Shown: positions 11,718 to 32,391 of the stretch, piece after piece
Layout: the number at the start of each line of letters is the position of its first letter
How positions within the stretch are numbered: the stretch's first letter is position 1
Assembly: GCA_944326705.1 (NCBI GenBank)
Contig: CALVEY010000023.1
Coordinates: forward strand, 1-32,391
Direction of reading: 5' to 3'
DNA: 32,391 nt
Origin: an uncultured Mucispirillum sp.
GTDB lineage: Bacteria > Chrysiogenota > Deferribacteres > Deferribacterales > Mucispirillaceae
Program-made: the position numbers and the translations under genes
The notes under the pieces: generated by a model
What the model saw: only the letters and a program-made list of their open reading frames with translations
Database searches by the model: none
Told to the model about the DNA's origin: nothing

Positions 11718-11754
11718 ACCTTCCTCCATAACTCAAGTGGATACTTGGCTTAAT

Positions 11755-11892
11755 ATGTTTGCAGGTCTCCTGACTTACTTTCAACTTAAAACACGCCTTC
11801 TCAAGATAATTCTCAATGGCATAATGTGTTTTAATCCAGATTACAGTCGCTTGAGCGGTTAGAGCATTTCACTCTATTCCCTTTTCAAACAT
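11755..11892 (-). ncRNA. Cobalamin riboswitch controlling the btuB-tonB-btuFDC operon
   Basis: Read on the minus strand, the element contains the B12 box AGTCAGGAGACCTGC (complement of 11761-11775), the core GGGAATAGAGTG and the conserved CGACTGTAA segment. The closing stem P1 is perfect: ATGTTTG at the RNA 5' end pairs with CAAACAT at its 3' end (plus-strand 11886-11892 and 11755-11761). About 35 bases separate P1 from the btuB start, and these include the ribosome-binding site, so translational control is plausible. In this class, adenosylcobalamin or another cobalamin normally turns expression off. Confidence 0.9.
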
Positions 11893-11899
11893 GGAAAGA

Positions 11900-11928
11900 A
11901 ATATAAAATATAATCAAATATAAATCAA
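11900..11928 (-). promoter_or_regulatory. Predicted promoter of the B12 uptake operon
   Basis: On the minus strand, TTGATT (complement of 11923-11928), a 17-base spacer and TATATT (complement of 11900-11905) form a good sigma70-type promoter. Transcription would begin near 11893, exactly where the riboswitch P1 stem starts. Confidence 0.65.
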
Positions 11929-11943
11929 GTAAAAATATTTTGC

Positions 11944-11971
11944 TTGACAAAAATTAAAAAAATAATACCAT
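11944..11971 (+). promoter_or_regulatory. Predicted promoter of the RCC1-repeat lipoprotein transcript
   Basis: A consensus -35 TTGACA lies at 11944-11949. A weaker -10 TACCAT at 11966-11971 follows after a 16-bp spacer. The start point would be near 11978, just before the second riboswitch. The -35 boxes of this and the divergent btuB promoter are only 15 bases apart. Confidence 0.5.
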
Positions 11972-11977
11972 TTAAAG

Positions 11978-12124
11978 CAGGTATACAAACGGAAGTGTGG
12001 TGTGATTCCACCGCTGCCCCCCGCAACTGTAATATCTGACGAGTTCATATTTATCCACCTGAGAGTTAAGCTTAATGGGAAGGAATGAATTAGGTTGAAG
12101 ATTAAGCCAGGAGACGCTGTATAC
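11978..12124 (+). ncRNA. Cobalamin riboswitch upstream of the RCC1-repeat lipoprotein
   Basis: All landmarks of the class are present: GGAAGTGTGGTGTGATTCC at the core, CTGCCCCCCGCAACTGTAA, GGGAAGGAATG, and the B12 box AGCCAGGAGAC at 12105-12115. The outer stem is formed by GTATAC at 11981-11986 pairing with GTATAC at 12119-12124. It matches the consensus better than the divergent copy. A possible downstream hairpin, CTTC/GAAG at 12138-12150, holds the GGAG of the next ribosome-binding site in its loop and could be part of the expression platform. Confidence 0.92.
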
Positions 12125-12153
12125 TTAAAAAAATATTCTTCGGGAGGAAGGCT

Positions 12154-13962: not shown

Positions 13963-14934
13963 ATCATTTTCTAAATATTTTTTTAATTCTTTTAAATCCA
14001 TATTATTACCAAGCCCAAGCATTACTTTTGCAAGAGTTTTTTCAAGTGTCATATTTTTGCTGGATACTGCACCATATTTTTCTGATATTATGCCCATTGG
14101 GTATTTATCAAGATGCACACCGTCATAAAGGCACTGGGTAGCACATACTACTGCCACATTATTTTCTATTGCTTTTTGTAAGGCAGGTATAAAGTTATTT
14201 TCACAATCTGCTGTTGGCACTCCACCTGCACCATAACCTTCAATAATTATGCCCTTATACCCCATATTAATAAGCACATCAATAATATCTGGTTTAAGTG
14301 ATGGCACCATTTTTAAAACAAATACTTTTTCAGATATGTTTTTATTAAAAACAGGTTTTATATTGTGATTTTTATAAAGCTTATTCCATATTATTTTATT
14401 ATTATCTGATTTTCCTGCTGTCTTATTATTTATAGATAAAAAACCAGTAAAATTTTCACTGTAAACTTTTTTAACGCTGTCCCCGTAATGAATATCTCCG
14501 TTAAATGCAAGGAAAACGCCATACACATTATCACTTGCAGCTAAAAATGCATCATACAGGTTTCTATAAGCATCAGTGGCTTTTGCCTTTAATGGAAGCT
14601 GTGAGCCTGTAAAAACTACTGGTTTATTAAGGCTGCTTATTGCACATGCCAGCATAGATGAAGAATAAGCCATCGTATCTGTGCCGTGAGTTATAACAAA
14701 GCCGTCATATAAATCATAATTTTTTTCAAGAGTATCAAGCATTAAAACATAATGTTTTTTGGAAATATTTGAGCTGTCAATATTTAAAAGTTCAAATGTA
14801 TCAATAGTGCAGATATTTTTTAATTCAGACATAAGCGATATTATATCGTTACCAGATATACCAGGAACAAGTCCATTTTCAGAAGGCATACATGCTATTG
14901 TGCCGCCTGTTGTAATCATTAATATTTTTTTCAT
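13960..14934 (-). CDS. ansA: Type I L-asparaginase
   Basis: The 324-residue protein hydrolyses asparagine to aspartate and ammonia. The two catalytic threonine motifs are present: TTGGTIA near residue 8 and HGTDTMAYSSSML near 84. VVFTGSQLPLKAKATDAYRN supplies the conserved lysine segment. EGYGAGGVP and ATQC, found in the C-terminal domain of AnsA-type enzymes, occur near 235 and 265. There is no signal peptide, which fits the cytoplasmic type I enzyme. No clear ribosome-binding site is seen upstream of the ATG. It lies downstream of the malic enzyme gene on the same strand, separated by a REP-like hairpin. Confidence 0.9.
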   Translation of the reverse strand: MKKILMITTGGTIACMPSENGLVPGISGNDIISLMSELKNICTIDTFELLNIDSSNISKKHYVLMLDTLEKNYDLYDGFVITHGTDTMAYSSSMLACAISSLNKPVVFTGSQLPLKAKATDAYRNLYDAFLAASDNVYGVFLAFNGDIHYGDSVKKVYSENFTGFLSINNKTAGKSDNNKIIWNKLYKNHNIKPVFNKNISEKVFVLKMVPSLKPDIIDVLINMGYKGIIIEGYGAGGVPTADCENNFIPALQKAIENNVAVVCATQCLYDGVHLDKYPMGIISEKYGAVSSKNMTLEKTLAKVMLGLGNNMDLKELKKYLEND

Positions 14935-14951
14935 TTTATTTATATGTACTT

Positions 14952-15031
14952 TGTCATTCTGAGCGAAGCGAAGAATCTTATAATCCTAGCTGGTAAAATT
15001 ATAGACTCTTCGGCTATGTCTCAGAGTGACA
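14952..15031. repeat. Minimal REP-like inverted repeat (80 bp)
   Basis: TGTCATTCTGAGCGAAGCG followed by AAGAATCT at 14952-14978 is matched in inverted orientation by AGACTCTTCGGCTATG and TCTCAGAGTGACA ending at 15031. The arms are about 33 bases, imperfect, with a loop of about 13 bases. It lies between the malic enzyme stop and the asparaginase start, so it could act as a transcript-stabilising or attenuating hairpin. The arms resemble the ends of the three long composite repeats at 26661, 27284 and 31761. Confidence 0.8.
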
Positions 15032-23454: not shown

Positions 23455-26400
23455 ATGGAAAATAAAGAAATACAACCAGGTTTTTTTATTCAAAGACCTA
23501 TTTTTGCAACAGTTATATCTATTATTATAACATTAGTAGGCTTAATATGTATACAAATACTGCCTGTTGAACGTTATCCAAACTTAACTCCGCCACAGGT
23601 TTCTGTAACTGCCACATATAATGGTGCAGATGCAGAAACAATTGCTCAGAATGTTGCCTCAATATTAGAAAGTGCAATTTTTGGCGTTGATGATATGATA
23701 TATATGAACTCTGTTTCTTCAAGTGCAGGTTATGTGAATGTTACTGTAACTTTTGCCATAGGAACAGACCCAGATTTGGCAACTATCAATGTAAATAACA
23801 AGGTGCAGACAGCTCTTGCACAGCTTCCAACAGAAGTGCAGCAGCTTGGTATTACAGTTACTAAAAGAAACCCATCTATGCTTATGATTGTTGCTTTATC
23901 ATCACCTGATAACAGCTATAGTAAAGCATATCTTGCAAACTATGCTTCTCTTAATGTGGAAGATGAATTAAAACAGGTAGATGGCGTTGGTGAAGTAAGC
24001 TTATTCGGTAAAGATGAGTATTCTATCCGTGTATGGCTTGACCCTAATAAATTAGCATATTATGGTTTAATACCAGATGATGTATCAAATGTTATACGCT
24101 CACAGAATGCTCAGTTTGCAGCAGGTTCTTTAGGTGCAGCTCCAATGGATGGCAAAGCAGATGTATACTGGCAGGTGCTACCTCCACTTAGATACAGCAC
24201 ACCAGAAGAGTTTGGTGAAATAATTATCAGAGCAAATTCTGACGGCAGCACTCTCAGGTTAAAAGATGTAGCACGCTTAGAGCTTGGTGCAGAAACTTAT
24301 GGAGTTGAAAGCCGTTATAATGGTGCTATGGCTACAGCTATGGCAATATATCTTTCACCTGATGCAAATGCACTTGCAACAGCTACAGCAGTTAAAGCAA
24401 AAGTTCAGCAGCTTTCAGAAAACTTTCCTGAAGGTATAGAATATCACTTTATTTTTGATAATACAAAATTTATTGTAATATCTATTGAAGAAGTTGTTAA
24501 AACATTAGTAGAAGCATTAATTCTTGTTATTATCATTGTTTATGTATTCCTGCAAAGCTGGAGAGCCACATTAATTCCATCACTTGCAGTGCCTGTATCT
24601 ATTATTGGTACATTTGCAGGTATGTATGCATTAGGCTTCTCTATTAACATCTTAACAATGTTTGCAATGGTTTTAGCTATTGGTATGGTTGTTGATGATG
24701 CTATTATCGTTGTTGAAAATGTTGAGCGTCTTATGGCAACAGGTTTAAGTGTTAAAAAAGCAACAGCTCAGGCAATGCATGAAGTTACACGCCCAGTTAT
24801 TGCAGTTGTGCTTGTTTTATCTGCGGTATTTATCCCAGTTGCATTTATGGGCGGTATGGCAGGTGTAATGTATAAACAGTTTGCCATAACTATTGTTATA
24901 TCAGTTATTATCTCTGGTATTGTAGCATTAACATTTACACCAGCACTTTGTATGCTTTTATTAAAACACGGCAAGGAAGAAAAACATCTTATCCACCGCG
25001 GATTTAACAAAAGCTTTGATTTTATGACAAAGGGCTATCTCCACGGTGTAAAATTTATTTTAAGAAATAATATTATTGCATTAATAATATATGGAGCAAC
25101 TATTGCAGGTATTGTTTATCTGTTTACACATATACCAACAGGGCTTGTTCCTGAAGAAGACCAGGGTGTTGTTTTATCTGTTGCACAACTTCCAGATGGA
25201 ACATCTACTGACAGAACAGCTAAGTATATGGAAGCGTATGCAGCAAAACTTAAAAATGACCCATCAGTAGAAGGCTTTATGAGCTTAGCAGGGTTTGATA
25301 TGCTTGCAGGCTCTGTTCGTCCAAATATGGGTGCAGCCTTTATTGACCTTAAACACTGGGATAACAGGACTACTGACAACCTTTCATCATTTGCATTAGT
25401 GCGTAAAATATATGGTATGGGTGCAGTTACTCCAGAAGGTGTTACTTTTGCATTTAACCCTTCATCAATTCCTGGAATGAGTGCTACTGGCGGTTTTGAA
25501 ATGTGGATACAAAACAGGGCAGGCGACTCAACAGAAAAACTTTACCAATATGCTATGCAGATTGTGGCTGCTGCTAACCAAAGACCTGAAATCAGTGGTG
25601 CAAGAACAACTATGAGTATTACAGCACCACAAATGCAGTTAGCAGTTGACAGAGAAAAAGCTCTTGCAATGGGCGTGGCTATTTCTGATATTTTCTCTGT
25701 ATTATCATCAACATTTGGTCAGTCTTATGTTAATGACTTTAACTTATTTGGCAGGTCATACAAAGTATATGCTCAGGCAGATTCTGAATATCGCTCAACA
25801 CCTAGCGATTTAGATAAACTATATGTTCGCAGCTCAAGTGGTAATATGGTGCCGTTATCTACTATGGTAACATATTCTCAAAAAGGTGGTGCCTATGTTA
25901 TAGAAAGGTTTAATAACTTCCCTGCTACAAAAATATTAGGAAATACAGGTTCTGGTTACAGCTCTGGTGAAGCTATGGCAGCTATTGAAGAAGTAGCAAA
26001 AAGTATTCTTCCGCAGGATTATACTATAGGCTGGTCTGGCCAGTCATATCAAGAAAGAGCATCATCAGGCAGTACCGTTACAGTATTTGCTCTTGCAATG
26101 ATTATGGTATTCTTAATCTTAGCTGCTCAGTATGAAAGCTGGTCATTACCATTTGCCGTTGTTATATCTATCCCGTTTGCTGCTCTTGGTGCAGGGCTTG
26201 CTACATACTTAAGTAATTACAGCAACGATATTTATTTCCAAGTTGCTCTTGTAACTCTTGTAGGTCTTGCAGCTAAAAACGCAATCTTAATTGTAGAGTT
26301 TGCGGTAGAAAAATACAGGGCAGGTGGCTGTACATTAGAAGAAGCAGCATTTACAGGTGCTCAGCTTAGGTTCAGACCTATTATTATGACATCTCTTGCC

Positions 26401-26595
26401 TTTATTTTTGGAACAATTCCATTAGCATTAAGTACAGGTGCAGGTGCTGCCAGCCGTAATGTATTAGGATATGCGGTTGTTGGCGGTATGGTGTTTGCAA
26501 CTATCCTGCTGCCGCTTTTTGTACCATTCTTCTTTAAATGGATTATGTGGATATCTATAAAACTCTTCCCACCAAAGAAAGATGAATTTGAATAA
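23455..26595 (+). CDS. RND multidrug efflux transporter (AcrB/MexB, HAE-1 type)
   Basis: The 1046-residue length and sequence fit the HAE-1 family of proton-driven drug exporters. FFIQRPIFATVISIIITLVGL opens the first helix. GMVVDDAIIVVENVERLM carries the paired aspartates of helix 4 needed for proton transfer. FIPVAFMGGMAGVMYKQFAITI, a porter-domain segment with GASAxx-like SGYSSGEAM, and GLAAKNAILIVEFA with RFRPIIMTSLAFIFG complete the motifs. It would form a tripartite pump with the adaptor and a TolC-type channel, which is not in this window. Substrate range cannot be read from sequence. Confidence 0.95.
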   Translation: MENKEIQPGFFIQRPIFATVISIIITLVGLICIQILPVERYPNLTPPQVSVTATYNGADAETIAQNVASILESAIFGVDDMIYMNSVSSSAGYVNVTVTFAIGTDPDLATINVNNKVQTALAQLPTEVQQLGITVTKRNPSMLMIVALSSPDNSYSKAYLANYASLNVEDELKQVDGVGEVSLFGKDEYSIRVWLDPNKLAYYGLIPDDVSNVIRSQNAQFAAGSLGAAPMDGKADVYWQVLPPLRYSTPEEFGEIIIRANSDGSTLRLKDVARLELGAETYGVESRYNGAMATAMAIYLSPDANALATATAVKAKVQQLSENFPEGIEYHFIFDNTKFIVISIEEVVKTLVEALILVIIIVYVFLQSWRATLIPSLAVPVSIIGTFAGMYALGFSINILTMFAMVLAIGMVVDDAIIVVENVERLMATGLSVKKATAQAMHEVTRPVIAVVLVLSAVFIPVAFMGGMAGVMYKQFAITIVISVIISGIVALTFTPALCMLLLKHGKEEKHLIHRGFNKSFDFMTKGYLHGVKFILRNNIIALIIYGATIAGIVYLFTHIPTGLVPEEDQGVVLSVAQLPDGTSTDRTAKYMEAYAAKLKNDPSVEGFMSLAGFDMLAGSVRPNMGAAFIDLKHWDNRTTDNLSSFALVRKIYGMGAVTPEGVTFAFNPSSIPGMSATGGFEMWIQNRAGDSTEKLYQYAMQIVAAANQRPEISGARTTMSITAPQMQLAVDREKALAMGVAISDIFSVLSSTFGQSYVNDFNLFGRSYKVYAQADSEYRSTPSDLDKLYVRSSSGNMVPLSTMVTYSQKGGAYVIERFNNFPATKILGNTGSGYSSGEAMAAIEEVAKSILPQDYTIGWSGQSYQERASSGSTVTVFALAMIMVFLILAAQYESWSLPFAVVISIPFAALGAGLATYLSNYSNDIYFQVALVTLVGLAAKNAILIVEFAVEKYRAGGCTLEEAAFTGAQLRFRPIIMTSLAFIFGTIPLALSTGAGAASRNVLGYAVVGGMVFATILLPLFVPFFFKWIMWISIKLFPPKKDEFE

Positions 26596-26607
26596 AATAT
26601 AAAATCA

Positions 26608-26634
26608 AACCCCTGTAAAAAGCAGGGGTTTTTT
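26608..26634 (+). terminator. Rho-independent terminator after the RND efflux genes
   Basis: The stem AACCCCTG (26608-26615) pairs with CAGGGGTT (26623-26630) across a 7-base loop, followed by six Ts. Confidence 0.9.
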
Positions 26635-26660
26635 GGTATGAAAAATAATTGAAATACTGC

Positions 26661-27242
26661 TGACTATTAATTCTAAGCAAAGCGAAGAATTTATATTTTT
26701 TTATTCATTAATATGTTTTTAGTTTTAAATATCCATATATTACTTACTGAGCTTTGCGGCGGTGTGATAGTGTAAGAAATATTAAAAATAATTAGTTAAA
26801 AAAATATATACCAATAAAATTTATCTTTACATCACTTTAAACTATTTTTCCGCCGCACAGTTCATAAATCAAGCATTCGTTATTTTCCCCTATAAAACTC
26901 CAAAGTATAATCGCTCATTATTTTTATTCCATTGCCACTGCAACTCGCTTCGCTCAAACAATCAGCTGGCAAACCATTCCATAAAAAACAACTCATATCG
27001 CAATTAAGTCACAAAGATAATAAAATAAGTCTGGAAATCTTTTTAAATTGTATGAAACATATATCTATATTAATAGTTTTTTAACTATATATAGCAGAGA
27101 ATGAAAACTTGTTTATGAGTTTTGCGGCGGTGTGATAGTATAAGAAATATTTAAAATGAATTTTGAATAATATAAATACTATTTTGTATTTACTGTGATT
27201 ATTAATATTTCAGATACTTCGCCTTGCAGGCTCAGTATGACA
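26661..27242. repeat. Composite repeat element E1 (about 580 bp)
   Basis: The left end (26661-26691, with TTCTAAGCAAAGCGAAGAAT) is a diverged REP-like half. The right end (27211-27242, CAGATACTTCGCCTTGCAGG followed by CTCAGTATGACA) is its inverted counterpart. Inside are two copies of the block starting TGAGnTTTGCGGCGGT (26748-26793 and 27116 onward) and a segment at 26838-27029 that matches the E2/E3 interior in reverse orientation. No credible gene is present. Confidence 0.75.
26838..27029 (-). repeat. Inverted interior segment within E1
   Basis: Read on the minus strand it contains TTATTTTATTATCTTTGTGA, CTTAATTG, GATTGTTTGAGCG, CGAGTTGCAGTGGCAATG and TGCGGCGG in the same order as the plus-strand interior of E2 and E3. 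Identity is lower than between E2 and E3. It looks like an older member or an inversion inside E1. Confidence 0.65.
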
Positions 27243-27283
27243 TAGAGCTGTGGTTTTATAAATATGCATCAATTACCGCACAC

Positions 27284-27924
27284 TGTCAATTCTGAGCACA
27301 GCGAAGAATCTGAATTTTATAAAATGCAGAAATGAATTTTATTTAATAAAAATGTGTAATTAAATATATATATAGATATATCCTTATTTAGCAGATGTTC
27401 CTAGGTTATTTTATTATCTTTGCGACTTAATTGTATATGAGCAATTTTTTGGTAAAAATACAGGATGTATTTTCTTTAGTGAGCATAGACGAATTTACTT
27501 CGGCTGTGCGTGGTTATAAAAATTCACTGGACGAGCGTTTTTTGCGAGAGCTGTCTGTTCCTGACCGAATAGGGAAGAATCAGAAAAGCAGCTTTAGAAT
27601 TTTTATAAAAAAATTTAACAGGATTTGCTGTCAGATTGTTTGAGCGTTAGCGAGTTGCTGCAGCAATGCGAGTGTTTTTTACGAGGACACTTTTTTCCGA
27701 CTGAGTAAGGAGGAAATAAAAAAAGTGGCTGATAGAAAAAATTGAGAATCCTTATACAATTGGAGCATAAGTAATAAAATAACGAAATATTACTTACTGA
27801 GCTTTGCGGCGGTATAATAGTTTAATAAATATTAAAAATGAATTTTGAATAATATAAATACTATTTTATATTTACTGTGATTATTTGTATTTCAGATACT
27901 TCGCCTTGCAGGCTCAGTATGACA
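27284..27924. repeat. Composite repeat element E2 (641 bp)
   Basis: It begins TGTCAATTCTGAGCACAGCG followed by AAGAATCTGA and ends TCAGATACTTCGCCTTGCAGG followed by CTCAGTATGACA, so the ends are about 30-bp imperfect inverted repeats. The interior is shared with E3, including the segments around 27400-27445, 27455-27530, 27601-27790 and the right-end block from 27798. A palindrome TTGCTGCAGCAA (27655-27666) and pairing segments AGTGT/ACACT (27671-27675 and 27687-27691) and CACTTTTTT/AAAAAAAGTG (27688-27696 and 27718-27727) suggest RNA structure. Confidence 0.85.
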
Positions 27925-28012
27925 AAATGGCTGTGGTTTTAAACTTTGCAGCTGCTGACTTATGGCATTATAACAGTGTATAAAATGTAATAAAAAATGA
28001 ATAAATACTTAA

Positions 28013-28032
28013 TCCCCTATTTTTGCAGGGGA
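28013..28032 (-). terminator. Possible terminator downstream of the nitroreductase gene
   Basis: TCCCCT at 28013-28018 pairs with AGGGGA at 28027-28032 over an 8-base loop. On the minus strand it is followed by a T-rich but interrupted stretch. It lies just past the nitroreductase stop. Confidence 0.4.
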
Positions 28033-28048
28033 CTAATATAACTTTTTA

Positions 28049-28579
28049 TTAATATTTATTATAGTGGACTTTTGAGCCGTCATACCTATCAACAAACTTA
28101 TGTTTGTCTTCAGAATATCCTATTGCAATTACTGCAACTGGAGTAATATGCTCAGGCATATTAAAATGTTTTTTTAATCCGTTAATACGCACTTCATCAG
28201 GATAAGTTCCTATCCACACAGAGCCAAGCCCAAGTTCTGCAGCTTGTAATAATATATTTTGGATAGATGCAGATAAATCCTGTGGATACCATGCAAGGCC
28301 GTTTTCGCCTCTGTATGATGTTTTTTCATTTCCTAAAACAATTATTACAAGCGGAGCTTTTGCTGCAAGCACATAATGTTTATCAATTGGTGCAATACTG
28401 TCTATTACTTTTTCATCATTCAGCACTAAAAACTCCCAAGGCTGTTTATTACATGCAGATGGTGCCTGCATAGCAGCACGAAGAAGTATATCTATTTTTT
28501 CCTGCTCAACTTTTTTTTCTTTTATAAATGAACGGATAGAGCGTCTTGTAAAAATAGTGCTTTCATTAATATTTTCCAT
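28049..28579 (-). CDS. Nitroreductase family protein (FMN-dependent)
   Basis: This is a 176-residue small nitroreductase. TRRSIRSFIKEKKVEQEKIDILLRAAMQAPSACNKQPWEFLVL is the classic N-terminal FMN-binding segment (RRSxRxF, then APSAxNxQPWxF). DLSASIQNILLQAAELGLGSVWIGTYP and PVAVIAIGY are the second FMN and dimer segments. Such enzymes reduce nitro compounds, quinones or flavins with NAD(P)H; the substrate is not evident. The start is supported by AGAGGT eight bases upstream. Confidence 0.9.
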   Translation of the reverse strand: MENINESTIFTRRSIRSFIKEKKVEQEKIDILLRAAMQAPSACNKQPWEFLVLNDEKVIDSIAPIDKHYVLAAKAPLVIIVLGNEKTSYRGENGLAWYPQDLSASIQNILLQAAELGLGSVWIGTYPDEVRINGLKKHFNMPEHITPVAVIAIGYSEDKHKFVDRYDGSKVHYNKY

Positions 28580-28608
28580 AAGTAACCTCTTTGTGTTTTT
28601 AATAGACT

Positions 28609-28637
28609 ATTATCTATATCTTTTGAAGAAATTTCAA
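28609..28637 (-). promoter_or_regulatory. Predicted nitroreductase promoter with overlapping inverted repeat
   Basis: On the minus strand, TTGAAA (complement of 28632-28637), a 17-base spacer and GATAAT (complement of 28609-28614) form a good promoter. The -35 lies within the inverted repeat TTGAA-N5-TTCAA at 28623-28637, which could be a repressor or activator site. Confidence 0.5.
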
Positions 28638-28662
28638 GATAAAATTATTTTGCCATATTACT

Positions 28663-28691
28663 TTGATTTTTTGTAATTTATATGATATAAA
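28663..28691 (+). promoter_or_regulatory. Predicted promoter of the XpaC-like gene
   Basis: The -35 TTGATT (28663-28668), a 17-base spacer and the -10 TATAAA (28686-28691) are followed by AAGGAG and the ATG at 28712. The leader would be very short. Confidence 0.6.
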
Positions 28692-28711
28692 ATACCAAGG
28701 AGTATTAAAGA

Positions 28712-29338
28712 ATGAAATTTTTAGGATTTTCACTGCTTTTATTTTTTGGCGTAGTTGCATTTGGTGCTGTATTAATTGCAGGTATTATTAAACTTGTAAG
28801 CCAGGCGATAAAAGACGCTGTATCTGTTTTTAATGGTGGTAAAAAATCACAAAGTAAAACTTACTATTATGGCGATAATTTTAGAAGAGAGCAGGAAGAT
28901 GAAAATATTACTGTAATAGATGCAGAAATTGTTAAAGACAGCCTTCTTAAACCATATATTGCAGATGTGAAATCAGCTGGTAAAAATAATAGTGATGAAG
29001 AGATAAAAAAGTTACTTAATGAACTTACAGATATTCTTCAAAGTATGGATAGTTATATTGCAAACCATAGAGATAAAGAAGATGATATTAAAATGATGGC
29101 AGAATATTATATACCAGAAATGCTGAGCCATTTAAAGACATATCAGGAAATGTGCAGCAGTAAATTTAAAAGCAAACATGAAGAAGCTATAAAACATGAG
29201 CTTATGGATACTATAAAAATGATAACAGATGCTTTTTCTACTGTTTTATCAGAATTTTATGATAATATGGCATTAAATACATCATCAAGTTTAGAAGCCT
29301 TAAAAGCAAGCATTAAAATGAAAGGCTATGTAAAATAA
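28712..29338 (+). CDS. XpaC-like membrane protein, copy 1
   Basis: This 208-residue protein has an N-terminal hydrophobic helix (about 5-30) and a helical cytoplasmic C-terminal domain (about 85-205). That domain contains MMAEYYIPEMLSHLKTYQEM and AFSTVLSEFYDNMALNTSSSLEALK. The pattern of a Y/H-x-P-x-x-L followed by Y-x-E resembles the XpaC (5-bromo-4-chloroindolyl phosphate hydrolysis) family, whose biochemical role is unproven. It is paralogous to the protein encoded at 29606-30478. Together with the TelA gene downstream it recalls the xpaC-telA pairs of other bacteria. AAGGAG supports the ATG. Confidence 0.65.
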   Translation: MKFLGFSLLLFFGVVAFGAVLIAGIIKLVSQAIKDAVSVFNGGKKSQSKTYYYGDNFRREQEDENITVIDAEIVKDSLLKPYIADVKSAGKNNSDEEIKKLLNELTDILQSMDSYIANHRDKEDDIKMMAEYYIPEMLSHLKTYQEMCSSKFKSKHEEAIKHELMDTIKMITDAFSTVLSEFYDNMALNTSSSLEALKASIKMKGYVK

Positions 29339-29542
29339 ACTGCCAGATAATTTTTTAAATTATTTTATAACTGGGAGTTTGCATAGTAAAATATAGTATT
29401 ATTTTATTTATCTTGATTATTGCTGCATTATTTTTTAACATGCAGTTTTAATAGTATTATCATATCTAAAAACTTTAAAATAAGGCATTAAAGTGAAAGG
29501 GACTGTCTATTCATACACAGTATATTCTAATTATTCTAATAT

Positions 29543-29571
29543 TTGATTTTTTAAAAAATATGTGATAAAAT
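29543..29571 (+). promoter_or_regulatory. Predicted promoter of the second XpaC-like gene and telA
   Basis: TTGATT (29543-29548), a 17-base spacer and TAAAAT (29566-29571) lie in a 267-base gene-free gap. The predicted start point is about 28 bases before the GTG at 29606. Confidence 0.6.
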
Positions 29572-29605
29572 CATATCCAATAAAATAAGTTAATAAGGTG
29601 CACTG

Positions 29606-30478
29606 GTGTATAATATAAATGATGAAAGTTCTGCTTTTGGCAGGCTTTCAAGTATGGCAGCAGTTATACTGATTTTTGCTGGGTTTGCTTTTATTATATT
29701 TTCTATAATTTCTTTTAATAACATTATTTTCCTTATTTCAGGCATTATCCCAGGTATAGCTCTGCTTATTGCAGGCTTTTTAATATTTTCTCGATTTATC
29801 AGAGCTTTAAAGTATTATAATATATATATGTCTGGTGCTCAATCTTTGCAGGCTATTTCTGATATTTTAATGGATTCTAAAAGAAATATTAAAAAAGATA
29901 TTGAGAAAATGGCAGCTCTTGGTATTATGCCTAATGCTCGGTTTGATTCTTATGATAATTTAGTTTTTTCTAATGATATAAAGGAAGAAGATGTTATAGA
30001 AGTGCCTGTTGAAGAAAACAGCAGCGAAGAAGCAGTGCAGGAAATATCATCATTAAGTCAGTGGAAAAAATATTTAGCAGAAATAAGCAGTGCAGAAAAT
30101 GAATTTAAATCTCAAGATATATCTTTCAGCTTATACAGGTTAGGAAAAATTGTAGGTAAAGTTTTAGAATATTTAGAAAAACACATTGAAAAAGAAAAAG
30201 ATGTAAAAAAACTGATGGATTTTCATCTGCCTTCTACACTAAAATTAATAGAATCATACAGAGAACTGCAAAAATCAGGCTTAAATACTTTTAATATACA
30301 AAAAACAAAGGATGATATTGTTTCTGCCTGTGATAAAATACATGAAGCATTCAGCGGTGTATTAGAAGATTTATATAACGATAATGCTATTGATGTTTCG
30401 ACAGATATTCAAGTATTAAAAATGATGCTTGCTCGCGAAGGTTTTTTAGATAGAGATACATTTAAAATAAAAAAATAA
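29606..30478 (+). CDS. XpaC-like membrane protein, copy 2
   Basis: The 290-residue protein has two strong hydrophobic segments (about 13-37 and 40-62), then a helical region. Its C-terminal domain (about 170-280) parallels copy 1: LMDFHLPSTLKLIESYRELQ and AFSGVLEDLYNDNAIDVSTDIQVLK align with MMAEYYIPEMLSHLKTYQEM and AFSTVLSEFYDNMALNTSSSLEALK. It starts with GTG, with AAGGTG six bases upstream. It is followed 16 bases later by the TelA gene, which implies joint function at the membrane. The molecular function is unknown. Confidence 0.65.
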   Translation: MYNINDESSAFGRLSSMAAVILIFAGFAFIIFSIISFNNIIFLISGIIPGIALLIAGFLIFSRFIRALKYYNIYMSGAQSLQAISDILMDSKRNIKKDIEKMAALGIMPNARFDSYDNLVFSNDIKEEDVIEVPVEENSSEEAVQEISSLSQWKKYLAEISSAENEFKSQDISFSLYRLGKIVGKVLEYLEKHIEKEKDVKKLMDFHLPSTLKLIESYRELQKSGLNTFNIQKTKDDIVSACDKIHEAFSGVLEDLYNDNAIDVSTDIQVLKMMLAREGFLDRDTFKIKK

Positions 30479-30494
30479 ATTAAAGGATAGAGTT

Positions 30495-31649
30495 ATGGAT
30501 GAAAAAAAAGAAAATATACTTACAGAAGTAGAACAGACTGTTGCAAATATTAATAAAGATATTGCTGAACAAACTTCTCAGCTTGCTCCAAAAATGGATA
30601 TGGAGCCATTAAGTGAAGAAGAATTAAAACAGATAGAAGATTACGCAGCTTCTATAGATATTCATAATACAAGCACAGTTATATCTTATGGCGCATCTGC
30701 TCAAAGAAAAGTTGCAGAGTTTTCCGAATCAGCTCTTGGAAATGTTACATCTAAAGATTTAGGTGCAGTAGGTGAAGCCTTAACAAGTGTTATTACAGAA
30801 TTAAAAGGCTTTGAAATAGATAAAGAAGAAGATAAAGGCTTTTTCAGCTTTTTTAGACGCAGTGCAAAAAAAGGTGCAAATAAAGTAATGGCTCTTAAAA
30901 CAAGCTATGAAAAAGCAGAAGCAAATATTGAAAAAGTAGTGCAGGTTTTAGAAAAACATCAGGTTACTTTATTAAAAGATGTGGCAATGCTTGATAAACT
31001 TTATGAGCTTAATAAAAGTTATTTTAGAGAGCTTACAATGTATATTGAAGCAGGTAAGAAAAAACTTGCATCTATTCAAGATACAGAACTGCAGGAATTA
31101 AGAGAAAAAGCACAAAAATCAGGGCTGCCAGAAGATGCGCAGGCTGTTAAAGATTTACTTGATTTATACAGCAGGTTTGAAAAGAAAATACACGATTTAG
31201 AGCTTACTAGAACTATATCTTTACAAATGGGACCGCAAATCAGGCTTATTCAAAGTAATGATATTCAAATGAGCGAAAAAATACAATCTACAATGGTTAA
31301 TACTATACCATTATGGAAAAGCCAGATGGTTTTAGCTCTTGGTATAACTCACTCTCAAGAAGCTGCAAAAGCTCATAGAGAAGTTACAGATATGACTAAT
31401 AAGCTGCTTACTCAAAATGCTGAAACTTTAAAAATGGCTACAATTGAAACAGCAAAAGAAGTGGAAAGAGGCATTGTAGATATTGAAACATTAAAAGCTA
31501 CTAATGCAAACCTTATATCTACTTTAGATGAAGTATTAAAAATTCAGGAAGAAGGCAGGCAGGGCAGAAAACATGCTGAACTTGAATTAAATAAAATAGA
31601 AGAAGATTTAAAAAACAAACTTATGGGGCTTGCAAATAAAAGCGAATAG
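30495..31649 (+). CDS. telA: TelA/YceH family protein (toxic anion resistance type)
   Basis: The 384-residue protein is largely alpha-helical and charged, matching the TelA family across its length. Recognisable segments are ISYGASAQRKVAEFSESALGNVTSKDLG, KGFFSFFRRSAKKGANKVMALKTSYEKAEANIEKVVQVLEKHQVTLLKDVAMLDKLYE, and PLWKSQMVLALGITHSQEAAKAHREVTDMTNKLLTQNAETLK. TelA was linked to tellurite resistance, and homologues have been tied to envelope stress and lantibiotic tolerance; the mechanism is not known. AAGGATAG precedes the ATG. It has no membrane segment, so the XpaC-like neighbours may anchor it. Confidence 0.88.
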   Translation: MDEKKENILTEVEQTVANINKDIAEQTSQLAPKMDMEPLSEEELKQIEDYAASIDIHNTSTVISYGASAQRKVAEFSESALGNVTSKDLGAVGEALTSVITELKGFEIDKEEDKGFFSFFRRSAKKGANKVMALKTSYEKAEANIEKVVQVLEKHQVTLLKDVAMLDKLYELNKSYFRELTMYIEAGKKKLASIQDTELQELREKAQKSGLPEDAQAVKDLLDLYSRFEKKIHDLELTRTISLQMGPQIRLIQSNDIQMSEKIQSTMVNTIPLWKSQMVLALGITHSQEAAKAHREVTDMTNKLLTQNAETLKMATIETAKEVERGIVDIETLKATNANLISTLDEVLKIQEEGRQGRKHAELELNKIEEDLKNKLMGLANKSE

Positions 31650-31760
31650 CAGGCTTAAGTAATAATTATTTAATTGCTGCATAAATATATTAAGTCAAAT
31701 ATGTAAATAAATACTTCTTTGTATTTATGCGGTATTAAGCTGTTAGTTACTGTCGCACAC

Positions 31761-32315
31761 TGTCAATTCTGAGCACAGCGAAGAATCTGGATTTATATAA
31801 TGCAAAAATGAATTTGATTTAATAAAAATGTTTAATTAAATATGTTTATAGATTACCTCCTTATTTAGCAGATGTTCCTATGTTATTTTATTATCTTTGC
31901 GACTTAATTTTATATGAGCAATTTTTTTGGGTAAAAATACAGGATGTATTTTCTTTAGTAAGCATAGACGAATTTACTTCGGCTGTGCGTGGTTATAAAA
32001 ATTCACGGATGAATTTTTATAAAAAAATTTAATAGGATTTGCTGTCAGATTGTCTAAAGCATTGCGAGTTGCTGCAGCAATGCGAGTGTTTTTTACGAGG
32101 ACACTTTTTTCCGACTGAGTAAGGAGGAAATAAAAAAAGTGGCTGATAGAAAAAATTGAGAATGATTATACAATTGGAGCATAAGTAATAAAATAACGAA
32201 ATATTACTTACTGAGCTTTGCGGCGGTATGATAGATTAAGAAATATTAAAAATGAATTTTGAGTAATATAAATACTATTTTGTATTTACTGTGATTATTA
32301 ATATTTCAGATACTT
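31761..32315. repeat. Composite repeat element E3, interrupted by an IS
   Basis: It starts with the same TGTCAATTCTGAGCACAGCG as E2 and follows E2 closely. It lacks about 65 bases corresponding to E2 27532-27596. It retains the palindrome, the pairing segments and the right-end block (from 32212). It stops at CAGATACTT (32307-32315), nine bases into the right-terminal repeat, where an IS3-type end begins. The rest of the right end is outside the window. Confidence 0.85.
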
Positions 32316-32391
32316 TGAACTTACCCAAAAAAGTTAGACAAAGCCATATAAGGAGATTATATGGTAAGAAAATACAGTTATGAGTTTAAAA
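32316..32391 (+). mobile_element. IS3-type insertion sequence, left end
   Basis: TGAACTTACCCAAAAAAGTT at 32316 replaces the expected continuation of the E3 right end, as seen by comparison with E1 and E2. It begins with TG and resembles IS3-family left inverted repeats. A transposase reading frame starts 45 bases in. Only 76 bases are visible. Confidence 0.65.
32361..32391 (+). CDS. IS3-family OrfA start (partial, runs off window)
   Basis: AAGGAG at 32350-32355 precedes an ATG reading MVRKYSYEFK, similar to the first residues of IS3-family OrfA helix-turn-helix proteins. Ten codons are visible, so the family call leans on the IS end next to it. Confidence 0.6.
   Translation, partial: MVRKYSYEFK

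Follow-up and report, generated by a model that had tools for sequence, protein, structure and literature searches.

Mosaic intergenic repeats of Mucispirillum with a structure-conserved hairpin core in two kinds of containers

We analyzed a DNA stretch of 32,391 nt (the window), contig C23 (CALVEY010000023.1) of the draft genome of an uncultured Mucispirillum sp.; the draft comprises 2.39 Mb in 79 contigs. Three composite repeats, E1, E2 and E3, are located near the right end of the window. E1 and E2 form a block between two convergent genes, an RND pump (23455-26595) and a nitroreductase (28049-28579), while E3 runs into an insertion sequence (IS). The initial annotation described E1-E3 as resembling non-autonomous mobile elements or elements derived from repetitive extragenic palindromes (REPs), with inverted REP-like ends and an expanded interior. 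This description came close; still, the interior turned out to be the better-defined part, a hairpin core that occurs in another type of container as well. Coordinates of the features are given in Table 1.

A search of the genome with E2 as query produced 115 matching places, so the family extends far beyond the window. The matches were pieces with recurrent breakpoints, delimiting blocks 1-55, ~78-181, 182-352, 353-399, 400-464, 465-570 and 587-681 of the query, unevenly covered. In many genomic copies, blocks ~78-181, 353-399 and 465-570 directly follow one another and no other block is present; therefore, 182-352 and 400-464 are insertions in E2 (inserts 1 and 2) and the outer blocks are parts of something different. 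Query positions 259-327, a single hairpin of ~70 bp (window 27528-27596), are missing from E3. The assignment of E1, E2 and E3 to one repeat family was confirmed: blocks of E2 and E3, described earlier as very similar, are 90-98% identical (most of them 94-98%) and the right parts of E1 and E2 are 93% identical. No open reading frame (ORF) of at least 100 amino acids was found inside E1-E3, in agreement with the earlier statement that they contain no intact ORF. The claim of inverted REP-like ends holds for E2 (27284-27312 and 27893-27924); the left arm of E1 is degenerate, and of the right terminus of E3 only CAGATACTT is left. Position 32315 marks the scar of an insertion rather than the end of an element, because an IS3-family element begins at 32316. 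Nor does the shared sequence stop at the REP-like termini. About 40 bp outside them also recur in the genome: the left flank of E3, GCGGTATTAAGCTGTTAGTTACTGTCGCACAC, matches a spacer of contig C65 with one difference, and the E1-E2 spacer is found again in other contigs. Of the two refuting conditions set in the initial annotation, a lack of further genomic copies does not apply, and an extension of shared sequence past the REP-like termini applies in part. The three repeats do not make up one element type with REP-like ends.

Table 1. Components of E1, E2 and E3 and the adjoining insertion sequence (window positions)
Feature	Position	Strand	Basis or remark
Whole E1+E2 block	26632..28047		blastn of orthologous region
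E1 left REP-like arm, degenerate	26670..26692	+	pattern match, 3 mismatches
E1 structured core hairpin	26873..27034	-	covariance model R1, 91.5 bits
E1 right REP-like arm	27211..27242	-	
E1-E2 inter-arm spacer, recurring in C51 and C21	27243..27283		
E2 left REP-like arm	27284..27312	+	
E2 structured core with intact outer stem GTTATTTTATTA..TAATAAAATAAC, split by inserts 1 and 2	27405..27783	+	
E2 insert 1, with H-type hairpin 27528-27596 (not in E3, C51)	27451..27621	+	breakpoints, folds
E2 insert 2, an H-type hairpin module	27669..27733	+	breakpoints
E2 core tail (GAGCTTTGCGGCGGTATAATAGT..), common to both containers	27784..27839	+	
E2 right REP-like arm	27893..27924	-	
E3 left REP-like arm; ~32 bp to its left also match a repeated spacer	31761..31789	+	
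E3 structured core with insert 1 (minus its H hairpin) and insert 2	31882..32197	+	
Start of IS3-family element (TGAACTTACCC.., TGAACTTACCCAAAAA..), truncates E3, cut by window end	32316..32391	+	transposase ORF from 32361, MVRKYSYEFK..

Uninterrupted copies of the core were extracted and aligned. The core is a single long hairpin of ~150 nt, closed by the outer stem GTTATTTTATTA..TAATAAAATAAC and followed by a tail of ~55 nt. Its unpaired stretches (GAC/GGAG, GAATG and the apical TGAGCG..AGCGAGTTGC) are nearly invariant. The stems vary in step, e.g. AATTGTATA/TATACAATT versus AATTTCTTA/TAAGGAATT, and GCTGTCAG/CTGCAGC versus GCAAGCTG/CAGTTGC. For copies from the same genome RNAalifold gave 51 pairs, 14 of which showed two-sided changes (10.1 ± 1.1 in shuffles). 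In this alignment 99.1% of cells were paired, two-sided changes were present in 84 cells (32 ± 4 in shuffles) and sliding the register by 1-3 columns decreased pairing to 41-61%. Among 73 distinct copies collected genus-wide, two-sided changes were seen in 38 of the 51 pairs versus 15.4 ± 2.2 in shuffles. By its covarying base pairs the core is recognized as a putative structured RNA; the z score of the RNA fold was -4.9. Helix interiors contained 88 G.U cells versus 24 A.C cells on the strand 5'-GTTATTTTATT; this excess points to it as the probable core strand (the minus strand in E1 and the plus strand in the other two repeats).

If the hairpin mattered only as DNA, matching changes in the two arms could also be produced by template switching at replication (palindrome correction) or by gene conversion in selfish or decayed DNA palindromes, with no selection for an RNA fold. 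The element occurs at dispersed sites, is free of coding sequence and is palindromic over its whole length, its RNA and DNA folds both lie far below those of shuffled sequences, and near-identical cores at different loci suggest homogenization. However, correction of palindromes would give perfect Watson-Crick arms, yet G.U pairs persist and outnumber A.C, and the unpaired asymmetric loops are near-invariant while the stems vary. We consider an origin of this kind unlikely.

The covariance-model search detected 35 core matches in the genome under study. Nine of 10 Mucispirillum species were positive, with 1 to 35 matches each, and no match was found in 50 genomes outside the genus, where stricter filters apply at that search size. 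The core-element pattern was present in 27 contigs of a contig database, 26 titled Mucispirillum and one placed in a bin titled Eubacteriales; the latter (L236, CASDVE010000064.1) has a full core copy (165.6 bits) and is probably a misbinned Mucispirillum contig. In Rfam, no match reached the gathering score, and only sub-threshold, chance-level matches appeared at a relaxed E-value. The family is not mentioned in the main texts of the literature searched. None of the 33 copies examined in context was inside an ORF.

Strong genus-wide conservation of pairing, near-invariant loops and exclusively intergenic positions could also characterize a host gene for a cis- or trans-acting regulatory RNA, which repeats multiplied and which is retained because it serves the cell. 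This possibility appears very unlikely to us: species differ widely in copy number (0 to 35), there is no fixed neighbour gene, copies reside in containers that transpose, and no orientation rule is apparent (in tandem contexts, seven copies on the same strand as neighbouring genes versus two on the opposite strand, too few to conclude). A terminator role of the core was rejected upon inspection, as neither strand has a T tract after the hairpin. An origin from phages or plasmids was rejected as well; searches of phages with E2, of plasmids with the core element and of viral contigs with the core pattern gave no match.

Many core copies sit in a container with CTGC ends (CTGCTTCACCCCCATTTTTTT and AAAAAAATGGGGGTGAAGCAG). 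Elements of this kind with a size of 405-640 bp have neither an ORF nor a transposase of their own. Of 14 copies in this size range, from four species, that could be scored for target duplications, 11 had exact ones of 8-11 bp; in one further copy the duplication measured 9 bp and contained a single mismatch. When flanks were paired at random, duplications of at least 7 bp appeared in 5% of cases. The CTGC container is a transposed miniature inverted-repeat transposable element (MITE), counted as such because of its terminal inverted repeats and target duplications, and it carries no transposase; its terminal repeats read CTGCTTCACCCCC. A core with both inserts in contig C46 shows 95% identity to E2 over the whole segment between the hairpin base (27405) and the last position of the tail (27832), yet this copy has a CTGC end. 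Therefore, the core passes between containers, either by its own insertion or by recombination.

The CTGC terminal repeat was matched 77 times in the draft (twice with the reversed control), and most matches lie no more than ~75 bp from a contig end; many further copies are thus collapsed in the assembly, and these repeats explain why it breaks. Many contigs of the draft end ~55-77 bp within a CTGC-ended element, and C46 (L031, 54-100) opens with two such ends 9 bp apart. Several candidates for the transposition partner were considered and rejected. An IS4-type (DDE_Tnp_1) transposase, suggested by the CTG ends and ~9-bp duplications, was not found in four genomes of the genus. Contig ends of G007, considered as a site of an autonomous partner, had interiors made of further nested repeats and no transposase. 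IS200 is present in a single copy in the genome under study and is not present in two copy-bearing species.

In the second container (E2, E3 and arrays in contigs C51, C21, C6 and C65) REP-like arms, TGTCAATTCTGAGC..GCGAAGAATCT and AGATACTTCGCC..GGCTCAGTATGACA, enclose the core. The arms had 43 matches versus 0 in the control, often as inverted pairs. An arm, a spacer of ~40 bp and a second arm recur jointly and can fold as one palindrome or hairpin, i.e. as an inverted doublet of a short palindrome. The spacer is common beyond the arms, which therefore are not clean ends of E2 and E3.

Inverted arms of this kind would fit a reading, in line with the earlier one, of the E2/E3 units as expanded REPs or REP doublets forming hairpins (REPINs), mobilized whole via their REP-like ends by a REP-associated tyrosine transposase (RAYT). 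A search for such a partner of TnpA-REP type, as proposed earlier, did not reveal one: the sole Y1 transposase of the genome is of IS200 type (155 bits, versus 36 bits for the REP-associated transposase at a cut-off of 80), and no Y1 transposase exists in G003 and G006, two copy-bearing species with near-complete genomes. Canonical REPs carry a GT[AG]G guide, although atypical classes without a guide have been named too (PMC6006769). The arms described here begin with TGTCA and have no such guide 5' of the hairpin. Given also that homology extends past the arms and that the core occurs in the other container, we find mobilization of whole units by a RAYT quite unlikely.

Hairpins with REP-like sequences were observed in other settings as well. 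Locus L061 (C1:164149-164700) consists of three tandem units of ~205 bp with the same REP-like arms and an unrelated interior, and REP-like hairpins at regular spacing are present in C10, C14 and C19. Positions 14956-14978 of the window, ATTCTGAGCGAAGCGAAGAATCT, form a REP-like hairpin with perfect pairing. Hairpins of this type that carry a compensating change, GAAC/GTGA in place of GAGC/GCGA, abound in one or more unrelated genomes (74 matches in G055, 23 in G059).

The two inserts of the core occupy the internal loop beneath its apical stem, one on each side. Each of them holds a module, designated H, composed of GAG[CT]G..[GA]CGAG, a variable stem, CCGACTGAGTAAGGAGGAA and the complementary stem; the pattern had 13 matches in the genome under study and none in 15 genomes outside the genus. 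Stem sequences of H modules are quite different, yet they pair: in 19 divergent modules, 35 cells had two-sided changes (15 ± 3 in shuffles). Nine of 25 modules also had outside flanks that were complementary for 9 bp or more, versus 4% in shuffled pairings. Judging from these patterns of change, H modules appear to be a second structure-conserved repeat family, one with no match in Rfam. At L242 (G007:C15 ~14450-14911), H-type modules with conserved loops and freely varying complementary stems form clusters of up to four.

The sequence starting at 32316 matches the ends of a 1452-bp IS in G006, which has two ORFs, the first beginning MARKYSYEFK... Based on its layout and sequence, we take it to be a member of the IS3 family. 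In G006, a clear REP-like half was found within 45 bp in 11 of 26 distinct flanks of this IS (1.4% in the control), and several more flanks stop at AGATACTT, where E3 is cut as well (loci L283-L312). Preference of some IS for REPs as insertion sites has been described (PMC1525189).

The site occupied by the E1+E2 block was compared in other genomes of the genus. In G002, sequences matching the RND pump terminator (up to window 26631) and the 3' end of the nitroreductase gene (from 28048) are separated by ~20 bp. The same site has no E1+E2 block in G001, G002, G005, G007 and G009; G003 has a different composite there and G006 has other REP-ended repeats. Since the block is missing or replaced in related genomes, E1+E2 is most simply regarded as a probable lineage-specific gain, assembled piecewise. 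The initial notion of an unstable segment is justified in the sense that E1+E2 is missing from five genomes and swapped for other composites in two. Two terminator-like hairpins with CCCCT..AGGGG stems (26609-26628 and 28012-28033) flank the block; the block-free site of G002 has one, between the convergent genes. Elsewhere in the window, two cobalamin riboswitches (11743-11924 on the minus strand and 11946-12135 on the plus strand) are located back to back, ~20 bp apart and in opposite directions.

The computation establishes a modular build with breakpoints, a conserved structure, transposition of the CTGC container (from its terminal repeats and target duplications), a lineage-specific E1+E2 block and IS insertion in REP-like arms. 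We think it rather probable that E1-E3 are mosaic non-autonomous intergenic repeats, made of separately mobile palindromic modules around a structure-conserved hairpin that resides in at least two containers. The hairpin core would travel in the CTGC-ended MITE, moved in trans by a transposase, and would also be carried in the composite flanked by REP-like hairpin doublets. H modules sit in unpaired loops of the core, which thereby gains arms and keeps its outer stems. Copies of the E2/E3 type and tandem arrays most likely spread via duplication and recombination between repeated doublets and cores. The REP-like arms serve the IS3-family element as insertion sites. The hairpin may be transcribed and act as RNA, for instance as an RNase III substrate or an mRNA stability element, by analogy with what was reported for Correia elements.

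Several points weigh against this account. A search among the Y1 and DDE_Tnp_1 families yielded no transposase with matching ends, DDE_Tnp_1 being absent from four genomes of the genus. Inspection, which was not scored, revealed no target duplication at REP-ended copies, where the right end of E3 is gone and arrays hide other ends; mobility of the REP-ended composite as a unit is therefore unproven. The genus alignment (A2) of 73 core copies was fitted to the covariance model, which favours pairing, and the copies are related, so cells with covariation are not independent events. Finally, one pair supplies 28 of the 88 G.U cells.

The closest known systems resemble the repeats in the manner of working. 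BOX elements of Streptococcus (boxA-boxB(n)-boxC; PMC3049150) are similarly composite, modular, intergenic and hairpin-forming; inner modules do not disturb the outer fold, repeats insert into each other and distribution is limited to close relatives. Unlike in BOX, the interior hairpin described here is common to two terminal types and its pairing is backed by many two-sided changes. Bacterial interspersed mosaic elements (BIMEs) and REPINs (PMC6006769) share short palindromic arms in inverted pairs, intergenic location, tandem arrays and use as an IS target; here, in contrast, the genome has no RAYT, the arms have no GT[AG]G guide and frequently a long structured interior lies between them. 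Correia elements (nemis) and enterobacterial repetitive intergenic consensus (ERIC) sequences, which are MITEs with hairpin potential (PMC10969869), would be comparable as non-autonomous, intergenic elements bounded by inverted repeats and forming a hairpin when transcribed. The defining features of Correia elements are inverted repeats of 26 bp and an interior that measures at most 156 bp (PMC3049150); in our case the repeats and the interior are different, and so is the duplication of 8-11 bp. As to REP-targeting IS (PMC1525189), the IS3-family element at 32316 and its G006 relatives insert in or beside REP-like palindromes too; however, host lineage and palindrome are different, and a clear REP-like half is present in only about half of the flanks examined. 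The E1-E3 family differs from the BOX, BIME/REPIN and Correia kinds by a structure-conserved interior common to two terminal types.

Thus, the parts work like known bacterial repeats such as BIMEs and BOX elements; the hairpin family is undescribed in the libraries searched. A bolder proposition, which we put forward tentatively and regard as doubtful at present, is that mobile structured RNAs of a class not described so far start from the ~150-nt hairpin, and that in this class a selected fold is swapped between unrelated transposon ends and grows, via hairpin modules in unpaired loops, into multi-branched RNAs across the genus. Mucispirillum schaedleri is a culturable commensal of the mouse gut. 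Strong conservation of structure in a dispersed bacterial repeat gives a direct lead to what it does, either in RNA form or in the form of single-stranded DNA. Should spread depend on the fold, the repeats would be parasites shaped as RNA; if the hairpin acts on neighbouring mRNAs, it would constitute a genus-wide layer of regulation.

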